Source: Clostridia bacterium
GTDB lineage: Bacteria; Bacillota; Clostridia; Christensenellales; Aristaeellaceae
DNA length: 47,201 nt
NCBI GenBank assembly: GCA_017532155.1
Contig: JAFXJP010000022.1
Coordinates: 1 to 47,201, forward strand
Reading direction: 5' to 3'
The position numbers and the translations under genes were made by a program. Each line of letters starts with the position of its first letter. Position 1 is the stretch's first letter. Positions 3,593 to 32,460 of the stretch are shown one piece after another. The notes under the pieces are model-generated. The model saw only the letters and a program-made list of their open reading frames with translations. It searched no databases and was not told where the DNA came from.

Positions 3593-3606
3593 CGCAGGGA
3601 GACGTT

Positions 3607-3640
3607 AGGGAGGCAGCTTTTTCGGAAAAAGCTCCTCCCT
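3607..3640 (+). terminator. Hairpin terminator after PFL-family gene
   Basis: AGGGAGG and AGCTTTTT pair with GAAAAAGCT and CCTCCCT around a CG loop, followed by AAAACCC rather than a T tract. Termination is likely completed by the second hairpin at 3694-3753, which ends in six T. Confidence 0.6.
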
Positions 3641-3693
3641 AAAACCCTCCCGAAAACCAGTCTTTTAGTTGACTTGTTTAGGCAGGCTATACG

Positions 3694-3753
3694 AAAAAAG
3701 GATCTGAAACCGAAGGTTCGAGCAAGCTCGCCCCTCGATTTCAGATCTTTTTT
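3694..3753 (+). terminator. CGAGCAAGCTCG-tipped terminator hairpin E1
   Basis: Six A, then GGATCTGAAACCGA, pair with TCGATTTCAGATC and six T, so either strand ends in a T tract. The tip carries the conserved palindrome CGAGCAAGCTCG seen in the other family members at 20895, 28877, 31996 and 32315. Confidence 0.75.
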
Positions 3754-3862
3754 CTTGCCCGTTTCACGGGCGCGATGGCTTCGCCATCGGCCTGCCGCAG
3801 TGTTGTATGGCTGCGCCCGCGGGGGATGCGCCGTTTCGCTAAAGCGAAACGAGCGGATGTAC

Positions 3863-3891
3863 TAGACAAGAAGTGTCGCAAATTGTATAAT
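3863..3891 (+). promoter_or_regulatory. Promoter of SGNH hydrolase gene
   Basis: TAGACA (3863-3868), 17-nt spacer, TATAAT (3886-3891), 30 nt before the start codon. Confidence 0.7.
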
Positions 3892-3921
3892 AGTAATATC
3901 GTTAAACAAGGGGGGCTTTGC

Positions 3922-4767
3922 ATGAAAAAAATTCTGACTTTCCTACTGCTGATCTGTTTTGTTTTCCCTGTTGCGCAAGCAGATGAAAAGATTTACCTGG
4001 CGCTGGGCGACAGCATCACCACGGGCTATGGGCTGGCAGCTTCTGAAAAAGGCTTTGCCAAGCTGATTGCCGAAAAGAACGGCTACAAGCTGGTCAATCG
4101 TGCGGTGAACGGCGCGACGACCGCCGATGTTCTGGCTCTATTGGAACAGCAGAGCGTCCTCAATACCGTTGCCAAGGCCGATCTGATCACCCTCACCTGC
4201 GGCGGCAACGATCTGATGGGCCTGCTCTTTATGCAGTCCGCAGCCGTTTACAATACGTTATTCCCCGAGCAAATCAGCACCGGCGATGCGTACGCCATCC
4301 TGACCAACCCCAGTGATCCGCGTCAGGGCGCGCTGATGTACGCCATGCAAAATATGCTCATGGGCACGGAAACCTCTCCCGGCCTGGTAGACAGCCCTGT
4401 GATGACTGCCGCGCTGATCGTATACGGCAATCAGCTCAATGACGTAATCGCTAAAATCCGCGCCGTTAATCCCGATGCTGCGATCATCGTATCCACGCAG
4501 TACAATCCCTTCCAATTCTTTACAGGCGACTACCTCCCCTTCGGGCAGATCGTCGGCAGAGCCGTGGAAAAGCTTTCCGGCGTGATCACTGCCAACGCCG
4601 AAACCGCCGGCTATCTGGTAGCCGACGCTTATAGCGCCTTTGCCGCAGGCACCGAGAATCTCTGCTGCGCTGCAATGCAGCCCTTCAATCCCGATCCGCA
4701 TCCCAATGCCGCAGGCCATCAGGTGCTGGCAGAGTGCTTCCAGCAGGTCATAAACAATATGCAGTAA
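3922..4767 (+). CDS. Secreted SGNH/GDSL-type esterase or lipase
   Basis: This 281-residue exported hydrolase starts with a signal peptide (MKKILTFLLLICFVFPVAQA). Block I is LALGDSITTGYG with the nucleophile serine, a conserved Asn lies in NGATTADV, block III is GGNDLMG, and block V is DPHPNAAGH with the catalytic Asp and His. These are the four SGNH signatures, so it should cleave an ester (lipid, acetylated glycan or similar) outside the membrane. ATG at 3922 was chosen over an upstream frame opening because it follows AAGGGGGG and begins the signal peptide. It appears monocistronic, with a promoter in front and a terminator behind. Confidence 0.92.
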   Translation: MKKILTFLLLICFVFPVAQADEKIYLALGDSITTGYGLAASEKGFAKLIAEKNGYKLVNRAVNGATTADVLALLEQQSVLNTVAKADLITLTCGGNDLMGLLFMQSAAVYNTLFPEQISTGDAYAILTNPSDPRQGALMYAMQNMLMGTETSPGLVDSPVMTAALIVYGNQLNDVIAKIRAVNPDAAIIVSTQYNPFQFFTGDYLPFGQIVGRAVEKLSGVITANAETAGYLVADAYSAFAAGTENLCCAAMQPFNPDPHPNAAGHQVLAECFQQVINNMQ

Positions 4768-4777
4768 TCATCATCCG

Positions 4778-4808
4778 GCGCAGAGAAAAAAGTCTCTGCG
4801 CTGTTTTT
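4778..4808 (+). terminator. Rho-independent terminator
   Basis: GCGCAGAGA pairs with TCTCTGCGC around a 6-nt loop, followed by TGTTTTT. It closes the SGNH hydrolase unit. Confidence 0.85.
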
Positions 4809-4823
4809 GTGAAGTATATCCGG

Positions 4824-4853
4824 TAGACAAACGCCGCGCATTTCCTGTATAAT
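4824..4853 (+). promoter_or_regulatory. Promoter of hydrolase-thioredoxin-aroD operon
   Basis: TAGACA (4824-4829), 18-nt spacer, TATAAT (4848-4853), 35 nt before the start codon. The -35 box is identical to that of the preceding gene. Confidence 0.7.
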
Positions 4854-4888
4854 GACGATATCACCATATTAAAAAAGGAGCTGTTCTT

Positions 4889-5542: not shown

Positions 5543-5551
5543 GGAGATGCA

Positions 5552-7258: not shown

Positions 7259-7271
7259 TAAAGGAGGCCGC

Positions 7272-8021: not shown

Positions 8022-8030
8022 ATATTTCCC

Positions 8031-8059
8031 TTGTAATTTTCACTGCAATCTGATATAAT
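8031..8059 (+). promoter_or_regulatory. Promoter of SRP RNA
   Basis: TTGTAA (8031-8036), 17-nt spacer, TATAAT (8054-8059), placing the start point close to the RNA 5' end near 8066. Confidence 0.7.
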
Positions 8060-8065
8060 AAAAAG

Positions 8066-8181
8066 GCTGAGAAATCGGGTCCCGTGCGATGACGCGGTGT
8101 GAACCTTGTCAGGGCCGGAAGGCAGCAGCAATAAGCATTTGCTGTCATGTGCCGCGGGTCAACCCGGTTTCTCAGTTTTTT
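8066..8181 (+). ncRNA. ffs: Signal recognition particle RNA, small bacterial type
   Basis: The closing stem is CTGAGAAATCGGGT (8067-8080) with ACCCGGTTTCTCAG (8162-8175), followed directly by a T tract. The domain IV core is present: GTCAGGGCCGGAAGGCAGCAGC (8109-8130) and ATAAGC opposite it, with the GGAA tetraloop that binds Ffh. At about 115 nt it lacks the Alu domain of the long Bacillus-type RNA. It acts with Ffh in co-translational membrane targeting. Confidence 0.96.
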
Positions 8182-8193
8182 GTTTGCAAAAAA

Positions 8194-8222
8194 GAACCTG
8201 CCGTTTGGCAGGTTCTCTTTTT
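8194..8222. terminator. Bidirectional terminator
   Basis: GAACCTGCC pairs with GGCAGGTTC around GTTT, with A-rich flank on the left and TCTTTTTT on the right. It terminates the reverse-strand sugar transporter operon and backs up the SRP RNA terminator. Confidence 0.85.
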
Positions 8223-10770: not shown

Positions 10771-10798
10771 GCGCGCAAGCCCTCCTTAACATAATAAG

Positions 10799-10827
10799 AA
10801 GGCCGTGACGACTTTCGCCACGGCCTT
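10799..10827 (-). terminator. Intercistronic hairpin between binding protein and ATPase genes
   Basis: AAGGCCGTG pairs with CACGGCCTT around an 11-nt loop without a strong T tract. Such hairpins usually stabilise the upstream message or attenuate, so that binding protein is made in excess of the membrane subunits. Confidence 0.6.
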
Positions 10828-10837
10828 ATAAGCAGAA

Positions 10838-11773: not shown

Positions 11774-11822
11774 AGGTTCAAATCCTCCTTGGCGTTTTCC
11801 AAACGCCTGTTTCATTGTCCCT

Positions 11823-11851
11823 ATTATAACAAAGCCACTTGGCTTTTTCAA
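11823..11851 (-). promoter_or_regulatory. Promoter of sugar ABC importer operon
   Basis: On the reverse strand there is TTGAAA (11851-11846), a 17-nt spacer and TATAAT (11828-11823). The spacer contains the dyad AAAGCCacttGGCTTT (11831-11846), a candidate operator for an unknown repressor. Confidence 0.75.
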
Positions 11852-13110: not shown

Positions 13111-13986
13111 ATGAAATCCATTGGCATCATCACCGACAGCACCTCAAGCATTACCCCCGCCGCGGCGGAAGCGCTTGGCATTCAGGTTTTGCCCATGCCT
13201 TTTTATATTGACAGCGTCTGCCACTACGAAAATGCAGGCCTCTCCCGCAGTGATTTTTTTGCCTGTCAGGCGGCTGGTAAAGACATTCACACCTCGCAGC
13301 CCTCTCCCGAAGAAGTCACCTGGCAGTGGGATCATGCGCTGAAGGAATACAAGCATATCCTGTATTTCCCCATCAGCAGCGGCCTGAGCGGCTCGTATGC
13401 CACCGCCTGCGTGCTTGCGCAGGAGCATCCCTATACCGGACGCGTGTTTGTGGTGGACGCCGGAAGGGTTTCCACGCTTCTGCACCAGTCCATCCTCGAT
13501 GCGCTGCAGCTGATTGACGAGGGCTACAAGGCCGAGGAAATCAAGGATATTATCGAAAAAAGCCGCGCGGATTTCTCCATCTATATCGCCGTAGAGCAGC
13601 TGGATTCCCTGCGCCGCGGCGGCCGTATTTCCTCTACGGCGGCTGCGCTGGGCTCGCTTCTTGGCATCAAGCCCGTGCTCTCCCTCACGGTAGGCAAGCT
13701 TGATCTGCACCAGAAGGTTCGCGGCAGCAAAAACGCCCGCAAGGCCATGATCGCCGCCATTGAAAAGGATCTGGAAACCCGCTTTGCCGCCGCCCGCGAA
13801 AAGGGAGAAGTGACCGTCATGATCGCCGGCAGCGCCGATGAGCAAACCACGGAAAGCTGGATTGCCCAGATAAAGGAAGCCTTCCCCGGCATGCCTGTGC
13901 TCTATGATGATCTGCCGCTTAATATCTGCGCGCACATCGGCCAGGGCGGCCTGGGCATCGGCCTGTCGGCAAAGCCGACTCGGTGA
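13111..13986 (+). CDS. DegV family fatty-acid-binding protein
   Basis: The 291-residue product has the DegV fold. The N-terminal motif is IGIITDSTSSITPAAAEALG, followed by the lipid-contact loops TSQPSPEEV and FPISSGLSGSYATA, LDSLRRGGRISSTAAALGSLLGIKPVL in the centre, and HIGQGGLGIGL at the end. Family members bind a long-chain fatty acid; in Firmicutes, FakB paralogues hand it to the kinase FakA. No FakA-like (DAK) gene is in the window. ATG at 13111 was chosen over 13069 because it starts the family motif and follows ACGGAG. A terminator follows. Confidence 0.93.
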   Translation: MKSIGIITDSTSSITPAAAEALGIQVLPMPFYIDSVCHYENAGLSRSDFFACQAAGKDIHTSQPSPEEVTWQWDHALKEYKHILYFPISSGLSGSYATACVLAQEHPYTGRVFVVDAGRVSTLLHQSILDALQLIDEGYKAEEIKDIIEKSRADFSIYIAVEQLDSLRRGGRISSTAAALGSLLGIKPVLSLTVGKLDLHQKVRGSKNARKAMIAAIEKDLETRFAAAREKGEVTVMIAGSADEQTTESWIAQIKEAFPGMPVLYDDLPLNICAHIGQGGLGIGLSAKPTR

Positions 13987-20875: not shown

Positions 20876-20894
20876 AGAACCGCAGCCGTTAATT

Positions 20895-20956
20895 GAAAAA
20901 GGTGAGAAAGTCATCGGCGAGCTTGCTCGCATCCATGATCTTTCTCACCATTTTTC
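20895..20956. terminator. GCGAGC-tipped bidirectional terminator hairpin E6
   Basis: GAAAAAGGTGAGAAAG pairs with CTTTCTCACCATTTTTC (one bulge). The tip is GGCGAGCTTGCTCGC, the family palindrome in reverse orientation, and the flanks TTAATT and AGTTT match copy E4 at 28877. It lies between convergent genes and has A/T tracts on both sides, so it can stop transcription from either direction. Confidence 0.8.
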
Positions 20957-20982
20957 AGTTTACACAACGGTTTTCCCGTCAA

Positions 20983-22569
20983 TCACCGCTGAAACGCCTC
21001 GATCCCGCGCAGCACCTCCGGCTCACGCACATCGCGCGCATCCGTAAACATCTTGCGGGTGAGGATCGATCCGTTGCGGTAATACAGGCACACAAACGGG
21101 CAATCCTCCCAGAAAAGCTGCTGAATTTCCTGCAGCGTCTGGCTGTAAGCGTTAAAATCCAGGCTCTTGCGCAGCTTTTTAAACAGCTCATCCATCTTCG
21201 AGGAGTTGTAGCGCATGTAGTTGGCCGTATTGCCGGAAATCAGCATAAAGCCGGGATCGGGCGCCGTATCCATATTAAAGGCTGCGATTGCCAGATCGAA
21301 ATTACCAGCCTTGAGGCGTGCCTTGGCGTCTGCAAAGGTCAGCGTTTCCACGTTGCACTCTACGCCAACCTCCAGCAGTCGCTCAGCGATACGATCGGCA
21401 ATCTCCACGCGCACAGAGTTTTCCTGCTCCTCGTACACATAAAAACGCAAATGCAGATTGCGCTTTTTGCCGTCAATCACCTTTTCGCGTACCAGATCCT
21501 CGTCGTCGCCGTCAACCCAGCCGCTTGCATCCAATAGCTCGATCGCCTTTTGCTTGTTATACTCCTGCAGATGATCCGCGCCGCTGAGATACGTCCATGT
21601 GCCGGGAATGAGCGGCGTATCGGTGCGCGTGACCATATCGTAATAGACATTCTCCACCAGGTCATCCATATTGATCATATACCGGATGGCCTGCCGCACG
21701 CGCACATCCTCCAGTTCTACCGAGCGATTATTCATCATCAGCGTTTCCAGCTGCGTGGTGCGGTAGCCAACATTATAGCTCGTCACACCGCTGCGATACT
21801 GCGCCGCCGTGATCGCGCGCGTCAAAACCGCATCCACACGGCTGTATTCATAGCTGGAAATCAGCTCACGGTTGGTGGAATGGAAGGTCACCATGATCTG
21901 CCGGATGTCCGGCTGACTTTTCCACCAGCCGGTATACGCGCTCAAAAGCATGTAATCGCGCGGCACAAAGATATCCAGGTAATACGCGCCCGTGCCTACG
22001 GGATTGTCCGCCTGCACCTCGCTGGCCTTGAGGATGGGGAAGTTCATCGCATACAGGAAGGAATACGCCGGACGATTAACGGTCTTAATAACCACCGTCA
22101 GGTTATCGCTGGCCTGTATGGAATCGATAAAATACTTGAGCGTGGAATAACGGCCCTTTCCTTCCTCCGCCAGACGCAGGATTTCCTCCGCCGTGGCAAC
22201 TACGTCATGCGCCGTGAGCGGCGTGCCGTCATGGAAGGTAATGCCCTCGCGCAGATAAAAATACCAGGTCTTACCGTTTTCCGACACCTGATAGCGCTCT
22301 GCCAGCGCAGGCTGCGGCTTGTAGTCATCATCGATATACATCAGCCCTTCATAGAGCAGATCCGTCAGCGACATAAATTCACGCTCGACCGGCTCCAGCG
22401 GGTTCACGCGCTCGCTGCCCACCGAGATAACGCCCAGATGCAGCGCATCTTCCTGCAGATAGGAAGCCATTGCCGGAGATGCCAGCGACAGCATCATCAC
22501 CACCGCCAGCAAAAGCGCACATTTACACCTGATCCTGATAGTAATGCTGGAAGTAGATCGCATAGGCAT
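20983..22569 (-). CDS. ABC transporter substrate-binding protein, family 5 (peptide type)
   Basis: The 528-residue protein has an N-terminal hydrophobic export signal (ALLLAVVMMLSLASPAMA) and the SBP_bac_5 fold. Recognisable parts are the segments PLEPVEREFMSLTDLLYEGL, LREGITFHDGTPLTAHDVVAT, VRQAIRYMINMDDLVE and DCPFVCLYYRNG. It should bind oligopeptides or related ligands, but no permease or ATPase genes accompany it. The start at 22569 overlaps the end of the transglycosylase gene by 47 nt. It has AGGAAAGG six bases upstream, so it is probably translationally coupled. It is last of the polA-coaE-slt operon. Confidence 0.88.
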   Translation of the reverse strand: MPMRSTSSITIRIRCKCALLLAVVMMLSLASPAMASYLQEDALHLGVISVGSERVNPLEPVEREFMSLTDLLYEGLMYIDDDYKPQPALAERYQVSENGKTWYFYLREGITFHDGTPLTAHDVVATAEEILRLAEEGKGRYSTLKYFIDSIQASDNLTVVIKTVNRPAYSFLYAMNFPILKASEVQADNPVGTGAYYLDIFVPRDYMLLSAYTGWWKSQPDIRQIMVTFHSTNRELISSYEYSRVDAVLTRAITAAQYRSGVTSYNVGYRTTQLETLMMNNRSVELEDVRVRQAIRYMINMDDLVENVYYDMVTRTDTPLIPGTWTYLSGADHLQEYNKQKAIELLDASGWVDGDDEDLVREKVIDGKKRNLHLRFYVYEEQENSVRVEIADRIAERLLEVGVECNVETLTFADAKARLKAGNFDLAIAAFNMDTAPDPGFMLISGNTANYMRYNSSKMDELFKKLRKSLDFNAYSQTLQEIQQLFWEDCPFVCLYYRNGSILTRKMFTDARDVREPEVLRGIEAFQR

Positions 22570-23272
22570 TCATCACCTTTCCTGCGTAATAGCGCGTGTC
22601 CTCCATGGGGATATCCTCCACCTTCAGGTTCACGCCATCGTCGGCATATTTCATGGCCCAGAGCTTTACATTGTTGGGGCCGGCATGATAAGCGCAGGCA
22701 ATCTTGATGGGATCGCCGTTAAAAATCCTGCTCAGATAACCGATATACCAGCAGCCGTAGCGGATGTTGGTTTCAGCGTCATACATATCGCTCCACGTGG
22801 CGCCGTCATTCAGCTTACGGTTGACAAACTCATAGGTGTCTTCCATCACCTGCATCAGGCCGCGCGCGCCCACGCTGCTCTCCGCGGAGGGATCATAACT
22901 GCTCTCGCGCAGAATGATCGCCGCAATAAAGGCCGGATGCACGTCATTTTCCGCCGCGTATCTTTCAATATAATCGCGGTAGCCGACCGTGTGACGCTCA
23001 ACCAGCATCTGATAATCCTGCGCCGCACGCTCGCGATCTTCCGTCAATCGCTTCATATTGCCGTTGGCAATGCCCAGCATGACGCCCGCAAGCACCAGCA
23101 CCAGGCACAAAACAATCACCGTGCGCACGGGAAACTGGCCGGATGCGCGCTTTTTTCTGCGTCTGTCAGCAGGCTTATTGGGCTGTATCGTTTTTTCCTT
23201 CTGCACCGGCTGCTGATGCCGCGTGCTGCGACGGTTGCGCTGCGGCGCAGAAGGCAGTTTTACTTCAGACAA
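22523..23272 (-). CDS. Lytic murein transglycosylase (SLT domain), membrane-anchored
   Basis: The protein has 249 residues. A basic, disordered N-terminus (1-48) precedes a membrane span (about 50-68), a short stalk, and the SLT domain (about 100-249). The catalytic Glu is at 123 in ILRESSYDP, followed by the family motifs GARGLMQV, NIRYGCWYIGYL and ACAYHAGPNNVKLW. It cleaves peptidoglycan glycan strands by forming 1,6-anhydro ends on the outer membrane face. The start overlaps the coaE stop by 8 nt. The same order coaE-slt occurs in many clostridia. Confidence 0.93.
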   Translation of the reverse strand: MSEVKLPSAPQRNRRSTRHQQPVQKEKTIQPNKPADRRRKKRASGQFPVRTVIVLCLVLVLAGVMLGIANGNMKRLTEDRERAAQDYQMLVERHTVGYRDYIERYAAENDVHPAFIAAIILRESSYDPSAESSVGARGLMQVMEDTYEFVNRKLNDGATWSDMYDAETNIRYGCWYIGYLSRIFNGDPIKIACAYHAGPNNVKLWAMKYADDGVNLKVEDIPMEDTRYYAGKVMNAYAIYFQHYYQDQV

Positions 23273-23876
23273 GTTGTAATCTCCTTTGCAAATCCCGCAT
23301 CAGCCCGCGCACGCGGCGGCGGGTGGCGCGAAAGCTTCCCGAGGTATCAATGAGGTGCTGCGCGCGCGCTTTTTTTTCGGCGACGGGCATCTGGCTGGCC
23401 ATGCGAGAGAGCGCCTGCTCGCGGGACATATGATCCCGCTTCATTACGCGGCGCACCTGCTCTTTCTCCGGCACATGCACGCACCACACCTCGTCGCACT
23501 GCGCGTCCATGCCCGTTTCATACAAAAGCGGCACATCCCAAAACACAATATCGGCTTTTGCTTCATCTGTCAACCGCTGCATTTTTCCAATCACCAGGGG
23601 ATGAATAATTTCTTCCAGTTCCTTGCGCCTGGCAGCGTCGGAAAATACCACGTCGCCCAGGCGGCGGCGGTTGAGAATGTCCCCGTCAAATACCTGATCG
23701 CCAAACACTTCCCGCACCCTGGGCAGCGCCTCGCCGCCCGGAGCCGTCACACTGCGGGAGATGGCGTCGGCGTCCAGCACCGTTACGCCCCTTTCGCGCA
23801 GGGCGTTGGCAACGCTTGTTTTGCCGCTGGCGATACCGCCGGTGAGGCCTACCACATACGGCTTATTTTGTTTCAT
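23265..23876 (-). CDS. coaE: Dephospho-CoA kinase
   Basis: The 203-residue kinase performs the last step of coenzyme A synthesis, phosphorylating the 3'-hydroxyl of dephospho-CoA. It shows the P-loop GLTGGIASGKTSV (10-22), the substrate motif LDADAISRSVT, FWDVPLLYETG, and the lid RVMKRDHMSREQALSRMASQ. It overlaps the end of polA by 14 nt, the common polA-coaE arrangement in Firmicutes. Confidence 0.96.
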   Translation of the reverse strand: MKQNKPYVVGLTGGIASGKTSVANALRERGVTVLDADAISRSVTAPGGEALPRVREVFGDQVFDGDILNRRRLGDVVFSDAARRKELEEIIHPLVIGKMQRLTDEAKADIVFWDVPLLYETGMDAQCDEVWCVHVPEKEQVRRVMKRDHMSREQALSRMASQMPVAEKKARAQHLIDTSGSFRATRRRVRGLMRDLQRRLQLV

Positions 23877-26391
23877 ACCAGCTGCTCCCCACCTTGACTT
23901 CGGCTACCAGCGGAACACGCAGCGTGACCACGCTTTCCATGCAATCCTTCAGCAGCTTTGCCACGGTCTCGGCCTCATTTTCAGGCGCTTCGATGATCAG
24001 CTCGTCGTGCACCTGCAAAATGAGCTTGGCCTTGAAGCCGCCCTTTTGCAGCGCTTCATGCACGCGGACCATCGCCAATTTAATAATATCCGCCGCCGGT
24101 CCCTGCACAGGCGTATTCATGGCGGCGCGCTCACCGAAATTGCGGATATTGGCATTGCTGGCCTTCAGCTCAGGCAGCTTTCTTACGCGGCCAAATACCG
24201 TGCGCGCCTCGCCCGTATCATAGCCCTCGGCCACAGCGCGGCTCATAAAGCCCTTCACGCCGGGATAGGTGGCAAAATACTTCTCAATAAACTCCGCCGC
24301 CTCTTTGCGGCTCATGCCGGTGTTGCGCGCCAGGCCAAAATCGCTGATGCCGTACACCAGGCCAAAGTTGACCGCCTTGGCATTGGCACGCATGGCGGGC
24401 GTGACATCTTCCATCGCAACGCCTGCCACCTCCGCCGCCGTGCGGGCGTGGATGTCCTGTCCCCTGCGGAAGGCGTCTACCATCGCTTCATCGCCCGAGA
24501 AGTGTGCCAGGATGCGCAATTCAATCTGCGAATAGTCGGCGTCTACCAGCACACACCCGGGCGAGGCCACAAAGGCGCGGCGGATTTCTCTGCCCATCTG
24601 CGTGCGCACAGGAATATTCTGCAAATTGGGCTCGGCGCTGGAAATGCGGCCCGTAGCCGTGCCCGTCTGATCAAAGAAGGTGTGAATGCGTCCATCCGAC
24701 TCCGTCTTGCGGATCAGCGCGTCAATGTAGGTGCCGTTCAGCTTGGCCACCTGGCGGTATTCCAGAATGCAGTCAATCGCCGGGTGCTTATCGCGCAGCT
24801 TTTCCAGCGTTTCGGCGTCCGTCGAATAGCCCTTGCTGGTCTTGCGGCCGGCAGGCAAAGCGAGCTTTTCAAACAACACTTCGCCCAGCTGCTTGGGGCT
24901 GTTGATATTAAATTCGCCCACATTGCACGCCGCATAGATCTGCTCGCGCAGTTCGTTTTCGCGCTTTGTCAGCGTATCGCCGATCTCGCGCAGCACCTGG
25001 ACGTCCACCGGGAAGCCCGTCTTTTCCATATCAAAGAGCACGCGCAAAAGCGGCAGCTCGATGGTGTTGTACAGCTCCGTCACCTTCGCCGCCTCCATCT
25101 CGGCGCGCTGCTTTTCATAAAGCGCCAGCACGCCCGAAGCGTCCGCATCGGCAAAGGAGGACAGGTGATAGCTCTTTTCCTGGGGATTGAGCACATAGGC
25201 TGCCAGCATGGTATCAAAGACAATCTCCGGCAGCTGATGCCCTTGCTCGCGCAGCGCATGCAAAAGACGCTTGCCGTCATGGGTGATCACCTTGCCCTGC
25301 CAGATCTCCCGGCACGCGGCGATCGGATCACCCTCATTCATGCCCGGCAGATCAAACAGCGCCACCTGGCCGCCCAGCTGCGCCTTGAGACGCTCGCAGC
25401 CGCTGGCAACGGAGAGCGTATCCTCGCTCATGTAGGCGGCAATTTCTTCTTTATTAAGAGCGGCGACATTTTCCTCCGTCAGCTCCTGCCATTCCTTAAA
25501 TGTGCGCGTTTTTTCTTCCGTAACAGTCTGTTCTGTCTTTTCGCCGCCCAGACGCTGCGCCAGCGAAACCAGGCCGTATTTATACAAAACGCTCACGCCC
25601 TTTTCAGGGTGATTGGCGTCGCAATCGTCATAATGCACTTCAATGGGCGCATCGCGGCGGATGGTAGCCAGCCACTTGGAAAACCGCGCGCTGTCGGCAT
25701 TTGAGCGCACCTTTTCGCCCAGCTTGCCCTTGATTTCGTCGCCATGCGCCAGTACATTTTCCAGCGTTTCATACTGCGCAAGCAATTTCACCGCCGTCTT
25801 TTCGCCCACGCCTGGAATGCCGGGAATGTTGTCGGAGCTGTCGCCCATCAGGCCCTTGAGATCGGTAATTTGCTCTGGCGTTACGCCCCACAGCTCCTTT
25901 ACGCGATCGGGCGTGCATTCTTCAATATCCGAAATACCCTTGCGGGTAAGGAGCAGCGTAACGTCATCGCTCACCAGCTGCAGCGCGTCGCGGTCGCCTG
26001 TCAAAAGCAGGGCGGACAAATCGCGCTGAATGCACTGCTGCGACAGCGTACCCAGAATATCATCCGCCTCGTAGCCCGTCAGACTCAATACGCCAAAGCC
26101 CATGGCGGACAATACTTCCTTGATGATATCAAACTGCCCGCGCAGCTCATCGGGCGTGCGGGCGCGTCCGGCCTTGTACTCCGCATACTCCGTATGGCGG
26201 AAGGTGGGCGCATGCTCGTCAAAAGCCACCGCGCAGTAGCGCGGCGCACGCTCGCGGATGCAGCGCAAAAGCATATTCAAAAAGCCGTGCACGGCATTGG
26301 TGTACACGCCATTGTAATCCATCAGCGGCAGCGCATGAAACGCCCTGTGCATCAGGCTGTTGCCATCCACGATCAAAAAAGTGTCTCGCAT
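23863..26391 (-). CDS. polA: DNA polymerase I
   Basis: The 842-residue enzyme serves repair and Okazaki-fragment processing. The N-terminal 5' nuclease (1-290) has FLIVDGNSLMHRAFHA, GYEADDILGTL, LLTGDRDALQLV and the helix-hairpin-helix GIPGVGEKTAVKLL. The middle 3'-5' exonuclease-like domain lacks the catalytic DxE motif (AAYMSEDTLSVASG where it is expected), as in many Gram-positive Pol I proteins, so proofreading is probably absent. Polymerase motif A is DYSQIELR (about 617), motif B spans RANAKAVNFGLVYG, and motif C is QVHDELIIE (about 792). It is first gene of a four-gene operon. Confidence 0.97.
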   Translation of the reverse strand: MRDTFLIVDGNSLMHRAFHALPLMDYNGVYTNAVHGFLNMLLRCIRERAPRYCAVAFDEHAPTFRHTEYAEYKAGRARTPDELRGQFDIIKEVLSAMGFGVLSLTGYEADDILGTLSQQCIQRDLSALLLTGDRDALQLVSDDVTLLLTRKGISDIEECTPDRVKELWGVTPEQITDLKGLMGDSSDNIPGIPGVGEKTAVKLLAQYETLENVLAHGDEIKGKLGEKVRSNADSARFSKWLATIRRDAPIEVHYDDCDANHPEKGVSVLYKYGLVSLAQRLGGEKTEQTVTEEKTRTFKEWQELTEENVAALNKEEIAAYMSEDTLSVASGCERLKAQLGGQVALFDLPGMNEGDPIAACREIWQGKVITHDGKRLLHALREQGHQLPEIVFDTMLAAYVLNPQEKSYHLSSFADADASGVLALYEKQRAEMEAAKVTELYNTIELPLLRVLFDMEKTGFPVDVQVLREIGDTLTKRENELREQIYAACNVGEFNINSPKQLGEVLFEKLALPAGRKTSKGYSTDAETLEKLRDKHPAIDCILEYRQVAKLNGTYIDALIRKTESDGRIHTFFDQTGTATGRISSAEPNLQNIPVRTQMGREIRRAFVASPGCVLVDADYSQIELRILAHFSGDEAMVDAFRRGQDIHARTAAEVAGVAMEDVTPAMRANAKAVNFGLVYGISDFGLARNTGMSRKEAAEFIEKYFATYPGVKGFMSRAVAEGYDTGEARTVFGRVRKLPELKASNANIRNFGERAAMNTPVQGPAADIIKLAMVRVHEALQKGGFKAKLILQVHDELIIEAPENEAETVAKLLKDCMESVVTLRVPLVAEVKVGSSWYETK

Positions 26392-26413
26392 GCAAAATCC
26401 CTCCTAATATATT

Positions 26414-26442
26414 ATTGTATCACAAAATAAGCGAATATACAA
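26414..26442 (-). promoter_or_regulatory. Promoter of polA operon
   Basis: On the reverse strand there is TTGTAT (26442-26437), a 17-nt spacer and TACAAT (26419-26414), followed by AGGAGGG before the polA start. Confidence 0.7.
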
Positions 26443-26484
26443 AGAGAACATCGCGCATACTACGCACGGAGGATGTAAATTTTT

Positions 26485-26991
26485 ATGCGGCCATGGATGG
26501 AAAAATGGGGCAGCGTGCTGCTGATCTTCTTTTGCGCGCTGGTCATTCTTTTTGCAGCGCTGTACACCCGCCAGGATGACATCCGGCGCATCGCCGCGCA
26601 AAATGCCGCCGCCACCCAGGATGAATCCCTTCCTGCGCTGCCAGCCTATTGCCCGCCTGTTTCAAGCGCAGTCACGCAGCTCTACGCCGGTCCCCGCCAA
26701 ACAGAAAACGGCGTGTGGCAGATAGATCCCTGCGTATATTACGCTGTCAGCAAAAACCAAAGCGTGTCCGCCTGCTGCACCGGCGTTATCCTGCATGCGG
26801 ACGAGCAAAAAATCGTCATTCAATCAAGCGATCATCAGCTTTTTTCCCTGCACGGCGTTTTTTCCCTGCTGACCCGCGCAGGCGATACGGTAACCGCCGG
26901 AGCGCCGCTTGCCACAATCGCCGAGCGCGGCGAAATGCGGCTGTCGCTCTCCGTCGACGGGCATTATCTTGATCCCTTATCATGTTTTTAG
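26485..26991 (+). CDS. Membrane-anchored degenerate M23/biotinyl-like domain protein
   Basis: The 168-residue protein has one N-terminal membrane span (about 9-29) and an extracytoplasmic beta domain. The segment TGVILHADEQKIVIQSS...LHGVFSLLTRAGDTVTAGAPLATIAERGEMRLSLSV follows the fold pattern of LytM/M23 peptidases. It lacks the zinc-binding His/Asp and the HxH motif, so it is probably a non-catalytic regulator or scaffold like other degenerate M23 proteins. GGAGG lies 11 nt before the ATG. It ends 9 nt before glmS, suggesting co-expression of an envelope protein with amino-sugar supply. The family call is tentative. Confidence 0.65.
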   Translation: MRPWMEKWGSVLLIFFCALVILFAALYTRQDDIRRIAAQNAAATQDESLPALPAYCPPVSSAVTQLYAGPRQTENGVWQIDPCVYYAVSKNQSVSACCTGVILHADEQKIVIQSSDHQLFSLHGVFSLLTRAGDTVTAGAPLATIAERGEMRLSLSVDGHYLDPLSCF

Positions 26992-27000
26992 GAGGCTTGT

Positions 27001-28776
27001 ATGTGCGGCATCATGGGCTATATCGGCACGCAAAGCGCGCAGGAAATTCTCTTAAACGGGCTGGAGCATCTCAGCTACCGCGGCTATGACAGCGCCGGCG
27101 TTGCCGTACAAAAAGAAAACCGGCTGCAGATTGTCAAAACGCGCGGGCGCATTGATCTGCTGCGCCAAAAATGCCAGGATACGCCGCTTGACGGAACGCT
27201 TGGCATCGGGCACACCCGCTGGGCAACGCACGGCCCGGCCAACGATCTCAATGCCCACCCGCACACAGATGCACGCGGCCGCATCGCCATTGTGCACAAC
27301 GGCGTGATCGAAAACCATGCGCAGCTAAGGCAGATGCTGACAGCACGCGGGTTTGTATTCCGCTCTGATACCGATACAGAATGCGCTGCGCATTTGCTTC
27401 GATTGTTGTATGACGGTGATATGCTGCGCACGCTTTTGCTGGCCGCGCGCTACCTCACCGGCAGTTATGCCATCGCCGCCCTCTGCGCGGATGATCCCTC
27501 GGCGCTGTACTGCATCCGTTCAGGCAGCCCGCTCATTCTGGGCACGCGCGAGGGCGAGAGCTACCTCTCCTCTGACATTCCGGCGCTGCTGCCCTACACG
27601 CGCGAGCTGACCGTGCCCGAGGACGGCGAGGCAGCCGTGCTGCGCCGCAGCGGCATATATCTTTTCTCTGCCAAAGGACAGCGGCGGCGTGCGCAGACCT
27701 TTCATGTATCGTGGGATATGCAAAGCGCCGAAAAGGGCGTTTATCCGCACTTTATGCTCAAGGAAATTCACGAACAGCCGCAGGCATTGCACTCGCCGCC
27801 TATCATCCGGAAGTTGCCCGCCCGTGCGCCATCACAGGCTGTGCTGCTGGGCTGCGGAACGGCCTATCACGCGTGCCTGCTGGGCGCGTATTATATGGAG
27901 CGGCTGGCGGGCATTCCGGCTTTTCCGGAGATTGCCAGCGAATACCGCAGCCGCATTGCTTTTCCCTACCGCGACTGCGCGTGCATTGCTGTCAGCCAGA
28001 GCGGTGAAACAGCCGATACCATTTCAGCAGCGCGCATGGCCAAGGCGCGCGGAGCAGTGCTGGTCACGCTGACCAACACACTGGGCTCGACGCTGGAGCG
28101 GATGTCCCCTGCTGCGCTGCTCACGCCCGCCGGACCGGAATTATCCGTTGCCAGCACCAAAGCCTACACTGCGCAGGCGCTGGCGCTGTTGCAGCTTGCG
28201 CTGCGCTGGGGGCGCATGCGCGGCACGCTGCAGGAGGCGCTCTCCGAGCAGCAGCTTTTACATTTGCCGCACTGGGCGCAGGAAATGCTCAGCAGCAGTT
28301 CAGCCATTCAGGCCTACATTGAGCCGCGCGCAGATCAGCCGCTTTTCTTTTTCATCGGTCGCGGCGCAGACGCCGTCACAGCGCGGGAGGCGGCGCTCAA
28401 GTTCAAGGAAATCACCTACACCCCGGCCGAGAGCTATCCGGCGGGCGAGCTCAAGCACGGTGCGATCGCGCTGATTCACGAGGGAATGCCCGTCATTGCC
28501 ATATGCACGCAGCCGGAATGGCTGCACAAGACGCTGGTCAATCTCTCTGAATGCCGTGCGCGCGGCGCCGAGTGCGTTTGCTTTTGTTTGCCGCACATGG
28601 AAAAGGACGCCCGGGAAGCAGCGGACCATGTCTTTGTTCTGCCCGACATGCCGCCGCTTTTGGCACCCATTATATCCGTGATTCCATTGCAGCTGCTAGC
28701 CTATTACGCGGCCTGCAAAAAGGGGCTGGATGTGGACAAGCCGCGCAATCTGGCGAAGTCTGTGACGGTGGAGTGA
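27001..28776 (+). CDS. glmS: Glutamine--fructose-6-phosphate aminotransferase
   Basis: The 591-residue enzyme makes glucosamine-6-phosphate, the first committed step to UDP-GlcNAc and peptidoglycan. The glutaminase domain begins with the nucleophile Cys2 in MCGIMGYIG, followed by RGYDSAG, HTRWATHG and HNGVIEN. Two SIS domains carry GCGTAYHA, SQSGETADT and SVASTKAYTAQ. The C-terminus DKPRNLAKSVTVE is the family consensus. AGGAGG precedes the ATG. There is no glmS ribozyme in the short 9-nt spacer in front. Transcription ends in the adjacent repeat region. Confidence 0.97.
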   Translation: MCGIMGYIGTQSAQEILLNGLEHLSYRGYDSAGVAVQKENRLQIVKTRGRIDLLRQKCQDTPLDGTLGIGHTRWATHGPANDLNAHPHTDARGRIAIVHNGVIENHAQLRQMLTARGFVFRSDTDTECAAHLLRLLYDGDMLRTLLLAARYLTGSYAIAALCADDPSALYCIRSGSPLILGTREGESYLSSDIPALLPYTRELTVPEDGEAAVLRRSGIYLFSAKGQRRRAQTFHVSWDMQSAEKGVYPHFMLKEIHEQPQALHSPPIIRKLPARAPSQAVLLGCGTAYHACLLGAYYMERLAGIPAFPEIASEYRSRIAFPYRDCACIAVSQSGETADTISAARMAKARGAVLVTLTNTLGSTLERMSPAALLTPAGPELSVASTKAYTAQALALLQLALRWGRMRGTLQEALSEQQLLHLPHWAQEMLSSSSAIQAYIEPRADQPLFFFIGRGADAVTAREAALKFKEITYTPAESYPAGELKHGAIALIHEGMPVIAICTQPEWLHKTLVNLSECRARGAECVCFCLPHMEKDAREAADHVFVLPDMPPLLAPIISVIPLQLLAYYAACKKGLDVDKPRNLAKSVTVE

Positions 28777-28793
28777 GAGGGATGAAGGGGAAC

Positions 28794-28822
28794 GTTACTT
28801 TCTTGGAGCCCAAGAAAGTAAC
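28794..28822. repeat. Perfect 13-bp hairpin, GTTACTTTCTTGG
   Basis: GTTACTTTCTTGG and CCAAGAAAGTAAC pair completely around the 3-nt loop AGC. The twin at 32432-32460 has a T-A pair where this one has G-C and keeps the same loop. Confidence 0.8.
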
Positions 28823-28876
28823 AAAGAAGGCAGTCGGTTATGTTTGTTGGCGGCATTGTTGCCGCGGCAGTTAATT

Positions 28877-28940
28877 GAAACAGGGGACAACGCTGACGGA
28901 TGCGAGCAAGCTCGCCCCGATCATCGTGATCCCCTGTTTC
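28877..28940. terminator. Terminator-like hairpin E4 (glmS side)
   Basis: GAAACAGGGGA pairs perfectly with TCCCCTGTTTC, with the tip GCGAGCAAGCTCGC. It is identical in sequence to E5 at 32315-32378 on the other strand. It could end glmS transcription. Confidence 0.6.
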
Positions 28941-29085
28941 AGTTTGCTTCGCAAACCCGCAGGGCGATGCCCTGCGGACTGCCGCTGTGTACATTTGTGC
29001 GTTTGGCTGTCGCCGTTTTTTCTGCGGAAAAACGAGCGGGTTTCGCGCTGCGGCGCGGGAGGAGGGAACGCCAGCTGCGGCTGGC

Positions 29086-29211
29086 TACACCTCATCACCG
29101 CCTCCGGCGGAGCTTCCCCTCAAGGGGAAGCCTTTTGGTGGATTGCAGCCAAGCAAGAGCCTTCCCCTTGAGGGGAAGGTGTCACGGCATTGCCGTGACG
29201 GATGAGGTGTA
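29086..29211. mobile_element. MITE-like 126-bp nested element with 11-bp terminal inverted repeats
   Basis: TACACCTCATC (29086-29096) and GATGAGGTGTA (29201-29211) are perfect inverted termini. Inside are two more dyads, CTTCCCCTcaAGGGGAAG and CTTCCCCTtgAGGGGAAG, and GTCACGGCattGCCGTGAC. Repeat copy R3 has the sequence TACACCTCATC once at the same place and then continues with CGCTCG, so this block is an insertion in R2. It encodes nothing credible and would need a transposase supplied elsewhere. Confidence 0.6.
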
Positions 29212-29339
29212 GCGCGTCGCAACGCGCGTTCCCCATCCGCTCGTTTTGCCTTAGCGTTACGGCGCTCCCCCGCGGGCGCTACCTCACAACACTGCGGCAG
29301 GCTGGACGACGCAGTCGTCCGCATCCGCGAAGCGGATAG

Positions 29340-29400
29340 AAAAAAGGGTCTGGAAGATGGAGGGCAAGCTTGCTTGCAATCCAGATTCCAACCCCTTTTT
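29340..29400. terminator. Terminator hairpin E3 (htpG side)
   Basis: A-rich left flank, GGGTCTGGAA arm, tip GGCAAGCTTGCTTGC, then TTCCAACCCC and five T. It is the divergent member of the CGAGCAAGCTCG-tipped family and lies where reverse-strand htpG transcription would end. Confidence 0.6.
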
Positions 29401-29453
29401 CATATAGCCTGCCGAAACAAGTCAACCAAAAAACTGGCTTTCGGGATGGGTTT

Positions 29454-29488
29454 GGGAAGGGGCTTTGGCCTTCCAAAGCCGCCTTCCC
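29454..29488. terminator. GGGAAGG hairpin behind htpG
   Basis: GGGAAGG and GGCTTTGG pair with CCAAAGCC and CCTTCCC around CCTT, with one unpaired G. It corresponds in position and layout to 3607-3640 and 31908-31942, but with different arm sequence. Confidence 0.65.
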
Positions 29489-29504
29489 AACGCTCCCCTC
29501 ACTG

Positions 29505-31355
29505 TCACGCCTTCTCCGCCAACCGCTTGGCAATCTCGTAGCTCTGGCGAATGAACGCCGTCAGCTCTTCGTTTTCCAGCGGGCGCGCGCTCATGCGGGC
29601 AATATCGTAATACTGCTTGGCAAGGAGCTTTTGCAGATCCTGATCCTGCATGCCGCACAGCGTTTTCACCGCAGCGCAGGCGGAGTTCACCACGATTTCC
29701 GGCCGTTCGGGCAGCTTGAAGTCCTGTCCGTAGAGCGCAGCCATCTCGCGATAGCGGCGCAGCTGCTCGTTTTCAAGCAGCATCAGCGGCAGCTCTTTAT
29801 CAGAAAGCGCGCTTACCTTGACAGTTGCGTCTTCATTGTCCAGCGCCTCGCGGAAAAGCTTTTCCAGTGCAGGCTGATCCAGTGCTTCGCCGTCTGCCGC
29901 CTGATCAATCAGGCCCTCCACGTCCGCATCCACGCGCGCGAAGATCACGCCCTCCGGCTGGCCCTTTTGCTCGAGCATCTGCATAAAGCTCACGTCGATG
30001 ACGGAATCGAGCACCGCCACGTCGATTTCCTTGGCCGTATAGAGATTGACCGAGGCCGCCTGACGCGCCGCATCGGTGGTGTAGTAAATCTTCTTTTCCA
30101 CCTTGCCCTCGTTGCGCGCACGGTATTCCTCGGGCGTCAGATATTCGCCCACCGTGGTCTTGAGCAGCAAGCTGCCCTTCACTGCATCGTAGAATTTGGG
30201 ATCGCGCAGGCAGCCATACTTGACAAAGGGATGAATGTCATCCCAGTAGGTCTGGTAGGTTTCGCGCTCCGTATTCATCAGGCCGTTCAGCTTATCGGCC
30301 ACCTTCTTGGTGATGTGCGCAGACAGCTTCTTCACATAGCCGTCATTCTGCAGGAAGGAGCGGCTGACGTTCAGCGGCAGATCGGGGCAATCCAGCACGC
30401 CGCGCAGCAGCAGCAAAAATTCGGGGATGATTTCCTTGATGTTGTCCGCCACGAACACCTGGCGGTTGAACAATTTAATCTGTCCCTCCTGGCCGCCGAA
30501 GTCCTTGCGGATGCGCGGGAAATAGAGAATACCCTTGAGGTTGAAGGGGTAATCCACGTTCAGGTGAATCCAGAACAGCGGATCCTCATAGGTATTGAAC
30601 AGCTTGTAATAGTTCTGCTTATACTCTTCCTCGGTGCACTCGCGGGGATTTTTCAGCCACAGCGGATGCGTATCGTTGATGGGCTGGGGCGCAGTTTCCT
30701 CCGCTGCGTCTTCCTTCTTTTCTTCGGCCTTCACGCGCTCGTCGTCCAGATCCTTCAGATAGATCGGCACCGCCATGTAGCCGCAGTAGCGATCCAGCAC
30801 CTCATGCACGCGATTGGCCTCGAGGAATTCCTTTTCTTCCTCGGCGATGTAAAGCGTGATGGTCGTGCCGCGCTCGGTGCGGCTGCCCGCACTCATTTCG
30901 TAGGCCATGCCGTCCTCGCTCTCCCAGCGCACGGGAGACGCGCCCTCCTGCCAGGAAAGCGTTTCAATGACAACCTTAGAGGAAGGCATAAAGGCAGAAT
31001 AGAAGCCCAGACCAAAGTGGCCGATGATGCCGCCCTCGGCCTCGCCCTGATATTTCTTGAGAAATTCCTCGGCCGAGGAGAAGGCAACCTGGTTGATATA
31101 CTTTTCCACTTCTTCCGCCGTCATGCCGATGCCGTTGTCAATAAAAGAGAGCGTGCCCGCGCTCTTATCCACTTCGATCACAACGCGCAGGCTTTCGTCA
31201 TCGCCCTTGAGCATGCGGTACTTGGTCACAGCGTCGCAGCCGTTGGCCGCCAGCTCACGGATGAAAATATCCTTATCGGAATACAGCCAGCGCTTGATCA
31301 CCGGCATAATGTTTTGCGCATGAATGGAAATATTGCCTTTTTTCATTTCAGACAT
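29505..31355 (-). CDS. htpG: Molecular chaperone HtpG (bacterial Hsp90)
   Basis: The 616-residue ATP-dependent chaperone has the normal length. The GHKL ATPase domain shows IRELAANGCDAVTKYRML, FIDNGIGMTAEEV, GHFGLGFYSAFM and RGTTITLYIAEEE. The middle domain has PREC, LYFPRIRKDF and GVLDCPDLPLNVSRSFLQ with the catalytic-loop Arg. A C-terminal dimerisation region follows. The ATG follows AGGAGG. It is monocistronic, with a TATAAT box at 31403-31398 on its strand; no CIRCE-like dyad is visible. It is convergent with glmS and divergent from mazF. Confidence 0.96.
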   Translation of the reverse strand: MSEMKKGNISIHAQNIMPVIKRWLYSDKDIFIRELAANGCDAVTKYRMLKGDDESLRVVIEVDKSAGTLSFIDNGIGMTAEEVEKYINQVAFSSAEEFLKKYQGEAEGGIIGHFGLGFYSAFMPSSKVVIETLSWQEGASPVRWESEDGMAYEMSAGSRTERGTTITLYIAEEEKEFLEANRVHEVLDRYCGYMAVPIYLKDLDDERVKAEEKKEDAAEETAPQPINDTHPLWLKNPRECTEEEYKQNYYKLFNTYEDPLFWIHLNVDYPFNLKGILYFPRIRKDFGGQEGQIKLFNRQVFVADNIKEIIPEFLLLLRGVLDCPDLPLNVSRSFLQNDGYVKKLSAHITKKVADKLNGLMNTERETYQTYWDDIHPFVKYGCLRDPKFYDAVKGSLLLKTTVGEYLTPEEYRARNEGKVEKKIYYTTDAARQAASVNLYTAKEIDVAVLDSVIDVSFMQMLEQKGQPEGVIFARVDADVEGLIDQAADGEALDQPALEKLFREALDNEDATVKVSALSDKELPLMLLENEQLRRYREMAALYGQDFKLPERPEIVVNSACAAVKTLCGMQDQDLQKLLAKQYYDIARMSARPLENEELTAFIRQSYEIAKRLAEKA

Positions 31356-31540
31356 GTCGTTTACCTCCTGGAATCATAGGCCCTTCAGCCAGTGTTTATT
31401 ATACCACAATTTGTAAAGGGAATATAAACTTTTTGCGCACTTTCCGCCAATCGCAGCATAGCATGAAAGCGTGGAGGGATTTTCTCCTCCGCGGCAGTCG
31501 GCGGCAGACATTCCGCGCTGCCGCCAGCGGGATGTGAGAA

Positions 31541-31891
31541 ATGATGAAACGCGGCGATGTTTACCGCGCCAATCTCGATCCCGTGCAGGGCTCAGAGCAG
31601 GGCGGCGTGCGGCCTGTAGTCATTGTGCAAAATGACCTGGGCAATCTTTCCAGCCCTACTGTGATTGTGGCTCCGCTCACTTCGCAGCCAAAAAAGCGCT
31701 CGCAAAAGACGCATGTGGAGGTGTTGCCGCCCGAAGGTGGGCTGCGATACCCCTCGCAGATTTTATGCGAGCAATTGCGCACGCTCGAAAAGACCCGTCT
31801 GAGCCGGTATTTGGGGACGCTTACGTCCGACACGCTCAGGCGGGTGGATGCGGCGCTTGCGGCTGCGCTGGGCACGGGAAAGGGGTTTTGA
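31541..31891 (+). CDS. MazF/PemK family endoribonuclease toxin, no partner visible
   Basis: The 116-residue protein shows the conserved core RGDVYRANLDPVQGSEQGGVRPVVIVQND with the RNA-contact Arg, VIVAPLTSQ, and the SQILCEQLRTLEKTRL strand. This is a full-length MazF-type mRNA interferase. Translation may begin at 31541 or at the adjacent ATG at 31544; no strong ribosome-binding site precedes either. The 185-nt gap to divergent htpG contains no MazE-like antitoxin, only a 24-codon frame (31463-31537) that looks non-coding. The toxin is therefore orphan, has an unlinked antitoxin, or is kept at low expression. Confidence 0.88.
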   Translation: MMKRGDVYRANLDPVQGSEQGGVRPVVIVQNDLGNLSSPTVIVAPLTSQPKKRSQKTHVEVLPPEGGLRYPSQILCEQLRTLEKTRLSRYLGTLTSDTLRRVDAALAAALGTGKGF

Positions 31892-31995
31892 TATAGAAGG
31901 GGACGTTAGGGAGGCGGCTTTTGAAGGCAAAATCCCCTCCCTAAAACCCACCCGAAAACCAGTCTTTTGGTTGACTTGTTTGGGCAGGCTATACG

Positions 31996-32057
31996 AAAAA
32001 GGAGCGTGAAATCACGGCTGCGAGCAAGCTCGCCCCGGTGATTTACACGCTCTTTTT
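31996..32057. terminator. CGAGCAAGCTCG-tipped terminator hairpin E2 (after mazF)
   Basis: AAAAAGGAGCGTGAAATCAC pairs with GTGATTTACACGCTC and TTTTT (one bulge) with tip GCGAGCAAGCTCGC. Arms differ wholly from E1 but occupy the same site in the module. Confidence 0.75.
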
Positions 32058-32314
32058 CTTGCCCGTTTCACGGGCGCGATGGCTACGCCATCGGCCTGCC
32101 CACTACTTATGTGGTTGCGCCTGCGGGGAGTGTCGTTTCGCTTCGGCGAAACGAGCGGATGAGGTGTAACCAGCCGCAGCTGGCGTTCCCTCCTCCCGCG
32201 CCGCAGCGCGAAACCCGCTCGTTTTTTCCGCAGAAAAAACGGCGACAGCCAAACGCACAAATGTACACAGCGGCAGTCCGAACGGCAAAGCCGTTCGGGT
32301 TTGCGAAGCAAACT

Positions 32315-32378
32315 GAAACAGGGGATCACGATGATCGGGGCGAGCTTGCTCGCATCCGTCAGCGTTGTCCCCTGTTTC
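32315..32378. terminator. Hairpin E5
   Basis: This is the reverse-complement twin of E4: GAAACAGGGGA pairs with TCCCCTGTTTC, tip GCGAGCTTGCTCGC. Sequence between the arms is identical in the two copies. Confidence 0.6.
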
Positions 32379-32431
32379 AATCAACTGCCGCGACTAACCA
32401 GCATCCAGCAATCGCCACGACTGGTTTCTTT

Positions 32432-32460
32432 GTTACTTTCTTTGGCTCAAAGAAAGTAAC
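32432..32460. repeat. Perfect 13-bp hairpin, GTTACTTTCTTTG
   Basis: GTTACTTTCTTTG pairs with CAAAGAAAGTAAC around GCT. It is the inverted twin of 28794-28822, with one compensated base-pair change. Confidence 0.8.

Follow-up and report, generated by a model that had tools for sequence, protein, structure and literature searches.

What are the arrays of hairpins that stand behind several genes in this stretch of clostridial DNA, and why do their stems differ from copy to copy while the pairing is kept? The window, by which we mean the whole stretch of 47,201 nucleotides (contig C1, positions 1-47201), belongs to the draft genome of a Clostridia bacterium, which comprises 2.02 Mb in 62 contigs and is 82.5% complete (G000; throughout, G-numbers denote the genomes compared, L-numbers the stretches taken out for comparison, and C-numbers contigs). 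A preliminary description of this DNA had reported copies of an intergenic hairpin repeat at 3601-3859, 28794-29494 (inverted) and 31902-32460, plus a single hairpin at 20895-20956, and all four places were confirmed. On balance, we regard them as members of a family of non-coding mobile elements, similar to miniature inverted-repeat transposable elements (MITEs) and to repetitive extragenic palindromes and bacterial interspersed mosaic elements (REP/BIME), whose long hairpin, flanked by A and T tracts, would act as a terminator.

The repeat is dispersed over the genome. Nucleotide searches of G000 gave 46 matches with 3601-3859 and 51 with 28790-29060 (in each search only 40 candidates were scored, and opposite-strand echoes are included). 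We took out 44 stretches around these matches, and an iterated profile search over them and the window (45 sequences) found 91 modules, 49 nearer to a type A (reference, window 31902-32161) and 42 nearer to a type B (reference, window 28794-29063). Since the A and B profiles detect each other, we consider them two branches of one module, approximately 260 nt in length. In G000 the modules lie mostly in facing pairs (A> <B, B> <A, and a few A> <A or B> <B), forming composites of about 500-700 bp; single-module, single-cloverleaf and solo-hairpin forms also occur. That the copies consist of two related module types facing each other had been missed earlier.

From the gene outward, a module consists of a purine-rich end, a first hairpin (hp1), a linker, a cloverleaf, and an inner hairpin (CCGTTT..AAACGAGCGG). 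The letters of hp1 are TACTTTCTT..AAGAAAGTA in B, and GTTAGGGAGGCGGCTTT..AAAGCCCCTCCCTAA and variants in A. In the cloverleaf, an outer stem (GGCAGGC/GCCTGCC or GGCAGT/ACTGCC) encloses the long hairpin hp2 and two short ones, hp3 and hp4. The long hairpin hp2, of about 25 pairs, carries the tip AGCAAGCT, which varies little, and at its base an A tract faces a T tract; most copies have the foot GAAAAAG/CTTTTTC, and the stem of the tip, GCGAG(CAAG)CTCGC, has the variants GCAAG/CTTGC, GAAAG/CTTTC, GTGAG/CTCAC, ACGAG/CTCGT and GCGGG/CCCGC. The predicted folds beat all shuffles (z of -7.5 for module A as RNA, -8.3 for its complement and -8.7 for module B as RNA), and the whole composite folded as single-stranded DNA was likewise below all shuffles (z -14.3).

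The stems are rewritten on both arms. As the preliminary description stated, the long-stem arms GATCTGAAA, GAGCGTGAAATCAC and GGTGAGAAAG are all present under the tip CGAGCAAGCTCG, as are the exchanges GATGGC/GCCATC versus GACGAC/GTCGTC and CAGGGC/GCCCTG versus AACGGC/GCCGTT. A tip was located in all but 4 of 129 modules, and 103 of the 125 located cores were given ends; alignment A1 (MAFFT) holds 84 of the 97 distinct cloverleaf cores from G000 and a relative, G007, with 13 omitted because their automatic ends were off. On the RNAalifold structure, 94.5% of the A1 cells are paired, and both partners vary in 28 of the 34 pairs; with partners slid by 1-3 columns, 34.5-50.5% were paired. The covariation score was 0.529 versus 0.206 in shuffles. 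Nine of the ten pairs in hp3 and hp4 covary, whereas the outer stem has three invariant pairs out of five in these two genomes. By a loose rule the hp2 sequences of the 103 cores form about 41 clusters, many of them common to several copies, so the A1 copies are not independent. A second alignment, A2, comprises 75 matches of R1, a covariance model of the cloverleaf, in eight other genomes; here all 34 pairs changed on both sides, outer stem included. A2 counts for less, since its rows were aligned to the model and some are echoes: of the 14 rows that score below 31 bits, 12 are echoes overlapping a stronger opposite-strand match, and two look like true second modules. One fold nevertheless recurs with very different stems in G002, G003, G004, G006, G008, G047, G085 and G129, which a single inherited change cannot explain. 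Running a covariance model over genomic copies, a check proposed in the preliminary description, found the fold across genomes with widespread paired changes. Its claim of covariation is thus borne out over many copies and species; the further step, that structure is under selection, does not follow from covariation alone, since template switching during replication can change the two arms of a hairpin in a single event, as described in PMC8794818. The pairing may be kept by a function in RNA, by a function in folded DNA or by template switching.

Modules are placed behind stop codons. In G000 and G007 together, 96 of 113 modules have their first nucleotide within -20 to +40 nt of the stop codon of a sense open reading frame (ORF) of at least 100 aa (113 of the 114 modules with an intact 5' end were tested; one was too near a contig end). 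The same is true of 7.2% of positions drawn at random and, for antisense ORFs, of 23 of 114 starts. The median distance from start to stop, taken by hand, is 8 for A and 20 for B. Modules are oriented away from the preceding gene, and among 40 facing pairs with both ends intact a stop is found at both ends in 24, at one end in 16 and at neither in 0. Across eight other genomes, 35 of 59 cloverleafs tested lie 60-200 nt behind a sense stop versus 15 in antisense, and in G047 the distance behind such a stop is 141-213 nt for 17 of 20 cloverleafs.

We searched for the family in related genomes with R1. Within the genus, matches at E up to 0.01 were found in 7 of 11 genomes (149 in G000, 81 in G007, 73 in G003, 26 in G008, 26 in G004, 18 in G006 and 16 in G002, echoes included). 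At E up to 1e-4, 7 of 120 genomes of the family matched, in 2 of the 50 genera sampled, the second genus being that of G047, G085 and G129; at E up to 1e-5, with stricter filters that lost weak matches, so did 3 of 396 genomes of the order (G000, G047 and G085). R1 thus recovered the cloverleaf in ten genomes, and facing cloverleaf pairs recur in G047. In G000, copies of the element lie at or close to the ends of several contigs (L001, L002, L009, L022, L038, L040 and L041), so that the repeat probably breaks assemblies and makes the copy numbers underestimates. Two IMG/VR contigs labelled viral (L189 and L190) carry element ends, although they may be bacterial; a pattern scan of that collection did not find the G000-type end. 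The element in L190 is complete, with both ends and two cloverleafs in about 560 bp. The model makes the family searchable where nucleotide search fails.

Comparison of G000 and G007 shows copies both shared and altered. Several G007 elements have the same gene neighbours as in G000. In one such comparison (L042 and L060), the left hp2 is of the same subtype, while hp2, hp3 and hp4 of the right module all differ and the linkers are kept; at L017, a B module in G000 corresponds to an A module at the same place in G007. At least four G000 modules (L025, L027, L033 and L037) are A/B hybrids by eye; a motif rule called seven hp1/cloverleaf hybrids, of which L001 is by eye an error of the rule and the other two are in G007. 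Three G007 elements, in a comparison restricted to G007 loci that had been selected because they carry an element, each have flanks from two different G000 elements: L064 has those of L006 and L007, L062 (near 4235-4735) those of L030 and L031, and L060 (near 13528-13936) those of L043 and L036. The flanks of the window composites are also apart in G007: the left flank of the composite at 28794 is on C11 and the right one on C12, and those of the composite at 31902 are far apart on C12, one of them inverted. Such breakpoints at elements fit recombination between copies.

At the gene ends occupied in the window, some relatives carry something else. Where the orthologue of gene 29505-31355 ends, inspected by eye in eight relatives, an ordinary hairpin with a T run was found in G002, G004, G005 and G006, an element-like hairpin array (not listed by R1) in G008, and neither kind in G007, G009 and G010. 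Behind the orthologue of gene 31541-31891 there are, by eye, ordinary hairpins in G007 and G008, and in G004 a hairpin followed by an element (L137, R1 E 0.0014). Where G000 has a lone hp2, between the gene ends at 20875 and 20983, G007 has by eye an ordinary bidirectional terminator-like hairpin with A and T runs. Over 20 orthologous stretches, R1 at E up to 1 matched only L137 and L129, the latter (E 0.28) probably by chance.

Clear terminal inverted repeats were found in two relatives, on elements that hold no gene. In G004 and G008 the elements end in inverted AACAGAAATTKGVCRRGG; with one mismatch allowed, this end occurs 163 times in G004, 112 in G008, 13 in G002, 9 in G003 and 0 in G006, and the reversed pattern, used as a control, 0 times. 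In the stretches fetched, the spans between both ends range from 174 to 632 bp, most being near 210-220 or 390-440 bp. Spans of about 420 bp, when folded, contain one cloverleaf and those of 545-632 bp two; the short ones, when read, contain a different palindrome. In the G008 stretches L181, L185 and L134, the terminal repeats bound elements of about 217-221 bp with another palindrome, TCATCCTGAGCGGAGCG..., as if the ends served different cargoes. The ends in G000 have only a short common part, purine-rich and followed by ACGT, ACGA or ACGG. One longer inter-end stretch, considered in the search for an autonomous parent, holds what seems by eye to be an ordinary metabolic gene. We also searched for the Y1 transposase (PF01797, the REP-associated tyrosine transposase or RAYT). 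It was not found in G007, in five more of the ten element-bearing genomes, or in G000, whose assembly is 82.5% complete; G008 has a strong match (E 5e-42), and the matches in G085 and G129 are weak and barely pass the cut-off. RAYT-driven REPs were rejected for G000 and G007 on this ground.

The copies in the window illustrate these forms, and the earlier statement that they always follow genes is true of its four places. A solo module A (3601-3859, plus strand, cloverleaf core 3681-3796) starts 9 nt after the stop of gene 2240-3592. The solo hp2 at 20895-20956, with the tip GCGAGCAAGCTCG on the minus strand, lies between the convergent genes ending at 20875 and 20983. In the inverted composite, module B (28794-29063, plus strand) has hp1 at 28794-28822 and the cloverleaf at 28866-28983, followed by the inner hairpin; module A (29231-29492, minus strand), with its cloverleaf at 29296-29413, begins at a distance of 13 nt from the stop codon of the minus-strand gene 29505-31355. 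The pair 28794-29492 encloses further palindromic sequence overlooked earlier (29097-29230, TACACCTCATC...GATGAGGTGTA, with inner GGGGAAG hairpins); a stretch related to it adjoins a module in G007 (L072). The other composite consists of module A (31902-32161, plus strand, cloverleaf 31983-32100), starting about 10 nt after the stop of gene 31541-31891, and module B (32194-32462, minus strand, cloverleaf 32272-32389). As had been stated, two of the places, 28794-29492 and 20895, are between convergent genes; by the ORF list, those at 3601 and 31902 are between genes of the same direction. A solo hairpin like hp1 of module A, also missed earlier, lies at 43502-43535 (plus strand), 5 nt past the end of gene 41536-43497. 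Each gene flanking the window copies has a Pfam match. The gene calls for modules used a crude codon score and some are wrong, for instance 32510-34072 against an ABC permease at 32549-33442. Gene 31541-31891, directly upstream of the second composite, has a PemK/MazF-type toxin domain in Pfam. Elsewhere the window has a small signal recognition particle (SRP) RNA match at 8073-8172 and, at its end, seven clustered tRNA matches (46541-47175).

To which known family could the elements belong? No Rfam family reaches its threshold at the window places, in agreement with the earlier statement that no named family with this architecture is known; that statement is qualified by a sub-threshold resemblance to Clostridiales-1 RNA (RF01699) and by a kind close to REP/BIME and MITE. 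RF01699 matches the minus strand of module A with 26.8 bits (cut-off 48), mainly over hp2 and a GCUUGC tip. None of 16 further loci matched it at E up to 1, and none of 17 genomes had a match over the cut-off; three sub-threshold matches were found, all in G047 (C117:6207-6291, C29:6453-6541 and C168:2951-3039), where R1 matches too. Clostridiales-1 is reported from "Clostridiales, human gut" as probably an RNA and probably not cis-regulatory (PMC2864571). Both have a long hairpin with a GCUUGC tip, matching hp2 on the minus strand, and an outer stem around several hairpins, whereas the remainder of the Clostridiales-1 model aligns poorly to the module. The two may be remotely related, and Clostridiales-1 could be another repeat of this kind.

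The likeness to REP, BIME and REPIN (paired REPs) sequences is broader. These too are described as many intergenic copies downstream of genes, between convergent or same-direction genes, in inverted pairs that sometimes combine two unlike units, with compensatory changes reported for REPINs (PMC3733652, PMC3116915); the modules, likewise, form inverted pairs that are extragenic and behind genes. Unlike a single hairpin of 20-40 bp, however, the module has about 260 nt and a cloverleaf core, its stem sequences are largely exchanged between species, and no RAYT was found in G000 or G007. Because this RAYT link did not hold, we set the family apart from REP members. By eye, and with no systematic search, we noticed no tag motif at the base, such as the GTAG or CGTC of REPs; the hp2 foot is GAAAAA(G) and the outer stem GGCAG. 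The lineage here is clostridial, and the main text of PMC3733652 contains neither "Firmicutes" nor "Clostrid". With MITEs the family shares its non-coding nature, a length of a few hundred bp, high copy number, and, in G004 and G008, terminal inverted repeats and size classes; it differs in that we found no target-site duplication by eye at the flanks listed and no parent transposon in the stretches read, and in that the fold of the interior is kept across genera and its sequence is not. The double-hairpin elements of mitochondria are a further parallel. The bcr1-type repeats of the Bacillus cereus group, 100-200 bp in length, are also dispersed and intergenic with a conserved secondary structure, but belong to another lineage, and we know of no paired-module composite among them. 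They are listed as a structured family in PMC2267715. Intrinsic bidirectional terminators have in common with our family the A/T tracts at the stem base, the place behind stops, and stem changes with pairing kept; unlike them, the family is a repeat of several hairpins with a very long stem. Among palindromic sequences, 250 candidate RNAs have been reported from human microbiomes (PMC8040213). We found no description of this family in the open-access literature searched (subscription papers and preprints lay outside the search).

If the elements are mobile terminators, hp2 would be an intrinsic terminator, mostly bidirectional and able to work from both sides, and the T run is paired with the A run at its base in nearly all A1 rows. 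An element settling behind a gene would take over the job of the resident terminator, so that it would be tolerated or kept there, and the resident one could be lost. Copies would arise by transposition of a non-autonomous element, through some enzyme, and then be reshuffled by recombination between copies; the pairing would persist because the folded strand serves a need, be it termination or protection of RNA 3' ends, mobility, or both. The bidirectional termination proposed in the preliminary description fits the placing behind genes and the fact that some relatives have, by eye, ordinary terminator-like hairpins at these gene ends; a terminator scan, on the other side, lists no long hairpin.

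Several observations weigh against this explanation. That simple scan, covering 19000-33000, did not list hp2, and its 22 sites versus 17.2 in shuffles are a chance number; it misses long hairpins, apparently because their T tract lies inside the stem. The two B copies in the window have the foot CTGTTTC, with three T only, and the 25-bp stem, hp3, hp4 and the outer stem exceed the needs of termination. The spacing to a sense stop is also more irregular in five other genomes of the genus than it is in G000, G007 and G047. Regarding mobility, no clear direct repeat was seen by eye at the listed flanks of complete elements that could be a target-site duplication, and no autonomous partner or transposase was found in the stretches read, which were among part of the element ends. 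Finally, G-U pairs versus A-C mismatches in unique stems numbered 25 versus 27 in hp2, 9 versus 1 in hp3 and 4 versus 7 in hp4, a comparison that its control did not discriminate; an earlier count over the unique hp2 of two genomes gave 50 versus 36. The control, ordinary T-run hairpins outside elements, gave 22 versus 17 with no G-U excess, and we therefore dropped the comparison as an RNA-level signature. In the compensatory evolution of Bacillus cereus terminators, G-U is described as the commonest intermediate (PMC5381666); such intermediates were not clearly seen in the modules, with the same limit of the control.

Other explanations account for part of these results. The structure may be kept for mobility and not for the host: a transposase or recombinase would recognize its substrate, the folded single strand, by shape, and termination would merely result from insertion behind genes. 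We regard this as a real, though lesser, possibility: both strands fold about equally well, and the composite does so as single-stranded DNA too; hp3 and hp4, not needed for termination, covary in nine of ten pairs; the outer stem, mostly constant in G000 and G007, changes on both sides in other genomes; the terminal inverted repeats bound several size classes with different interiors; and a folded single-stranded intermediate has been suggested for REPINs (PMC3116915). No candidate enzyme emerged, however, Y1 transposase not being found in 7 of the 10 element-bearing genomes, and the place behind stops, together with ordinary terminators at the same places in relatives, suggests a use for the host. 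That use could instead lie in the RNA, as with REPs: transcribed structures of the 3' untranslated region would block exonucleases or make stable 3'-end small RNAs, and termination would take place elsewhere. Modules point away from the preceding gene and fold strongly as RNA, and REPs are described downstream of coding regions, plausibly transcribed (PMC3733652). Yet some relatives have ordinary terminator-like hairpins at these very sites, and G-U is not commoner than A-C in the stems of hp2 and hp4, though it is in hp3, in the comparison that the control did not discriminate; we consider this role unlikely.

The paired changes might also be mutational, with template switching rewriting the arms so that covariation would appear with no selection for structure. 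Such a mechanism has been described (PMC8794818), orthologous copies can differ in the entire hp2 hairpin, and close hp3 pairs have 20 double versus 19 one-sided changes. The counts differ in the other stems: close hp2 pairs have 0 Watson-Crick double versus 16 one-sided changes in 36 pairs, and close hp4 pairs 6 versus 27 in 84 pairs (the pairs compared are not independent). Template switching by itself also leaves unexplained six helices in fixed order across two genera, with near-constant loops and A/T tracts, and as the whole explanation it seems to us very improbable. Chance similarity of unrelated ordinary terminators, which the preliminary description had set against its own proposal, is excluded by the 46 and 51 genome matches and by the folds that beat all shuffles. 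A/T-tract hairpins do occur between convergent genes, and some relatives have a simple hairpin at the same places; still, the similarity extends over the length of a module and one model recovers one cloverleaf in ten genomes, so that we give this explanation practically no weight.

A bolder version of the mobile terminator would join termination to the recognition of shape: an enzyme would act on the single-strand cloverleaf, and the element would dock behind stops, giving genes movable and exchangeable terminators whose hairpins are swapped as cassettes. We offer this tentatively, as a rather doubtful proposal. Repeat families are usually recognized by their sequence; here an architecture of 119 positions outlasts the replacement of most stem letters in two genera. 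The family thus provides a natural test between structure held by selection and template-switch repair. Our results suggest that mobile elements can supply terminators, which would link genome rearrangement, the evolution of gene ends and mobile DNA in these Clostridia.

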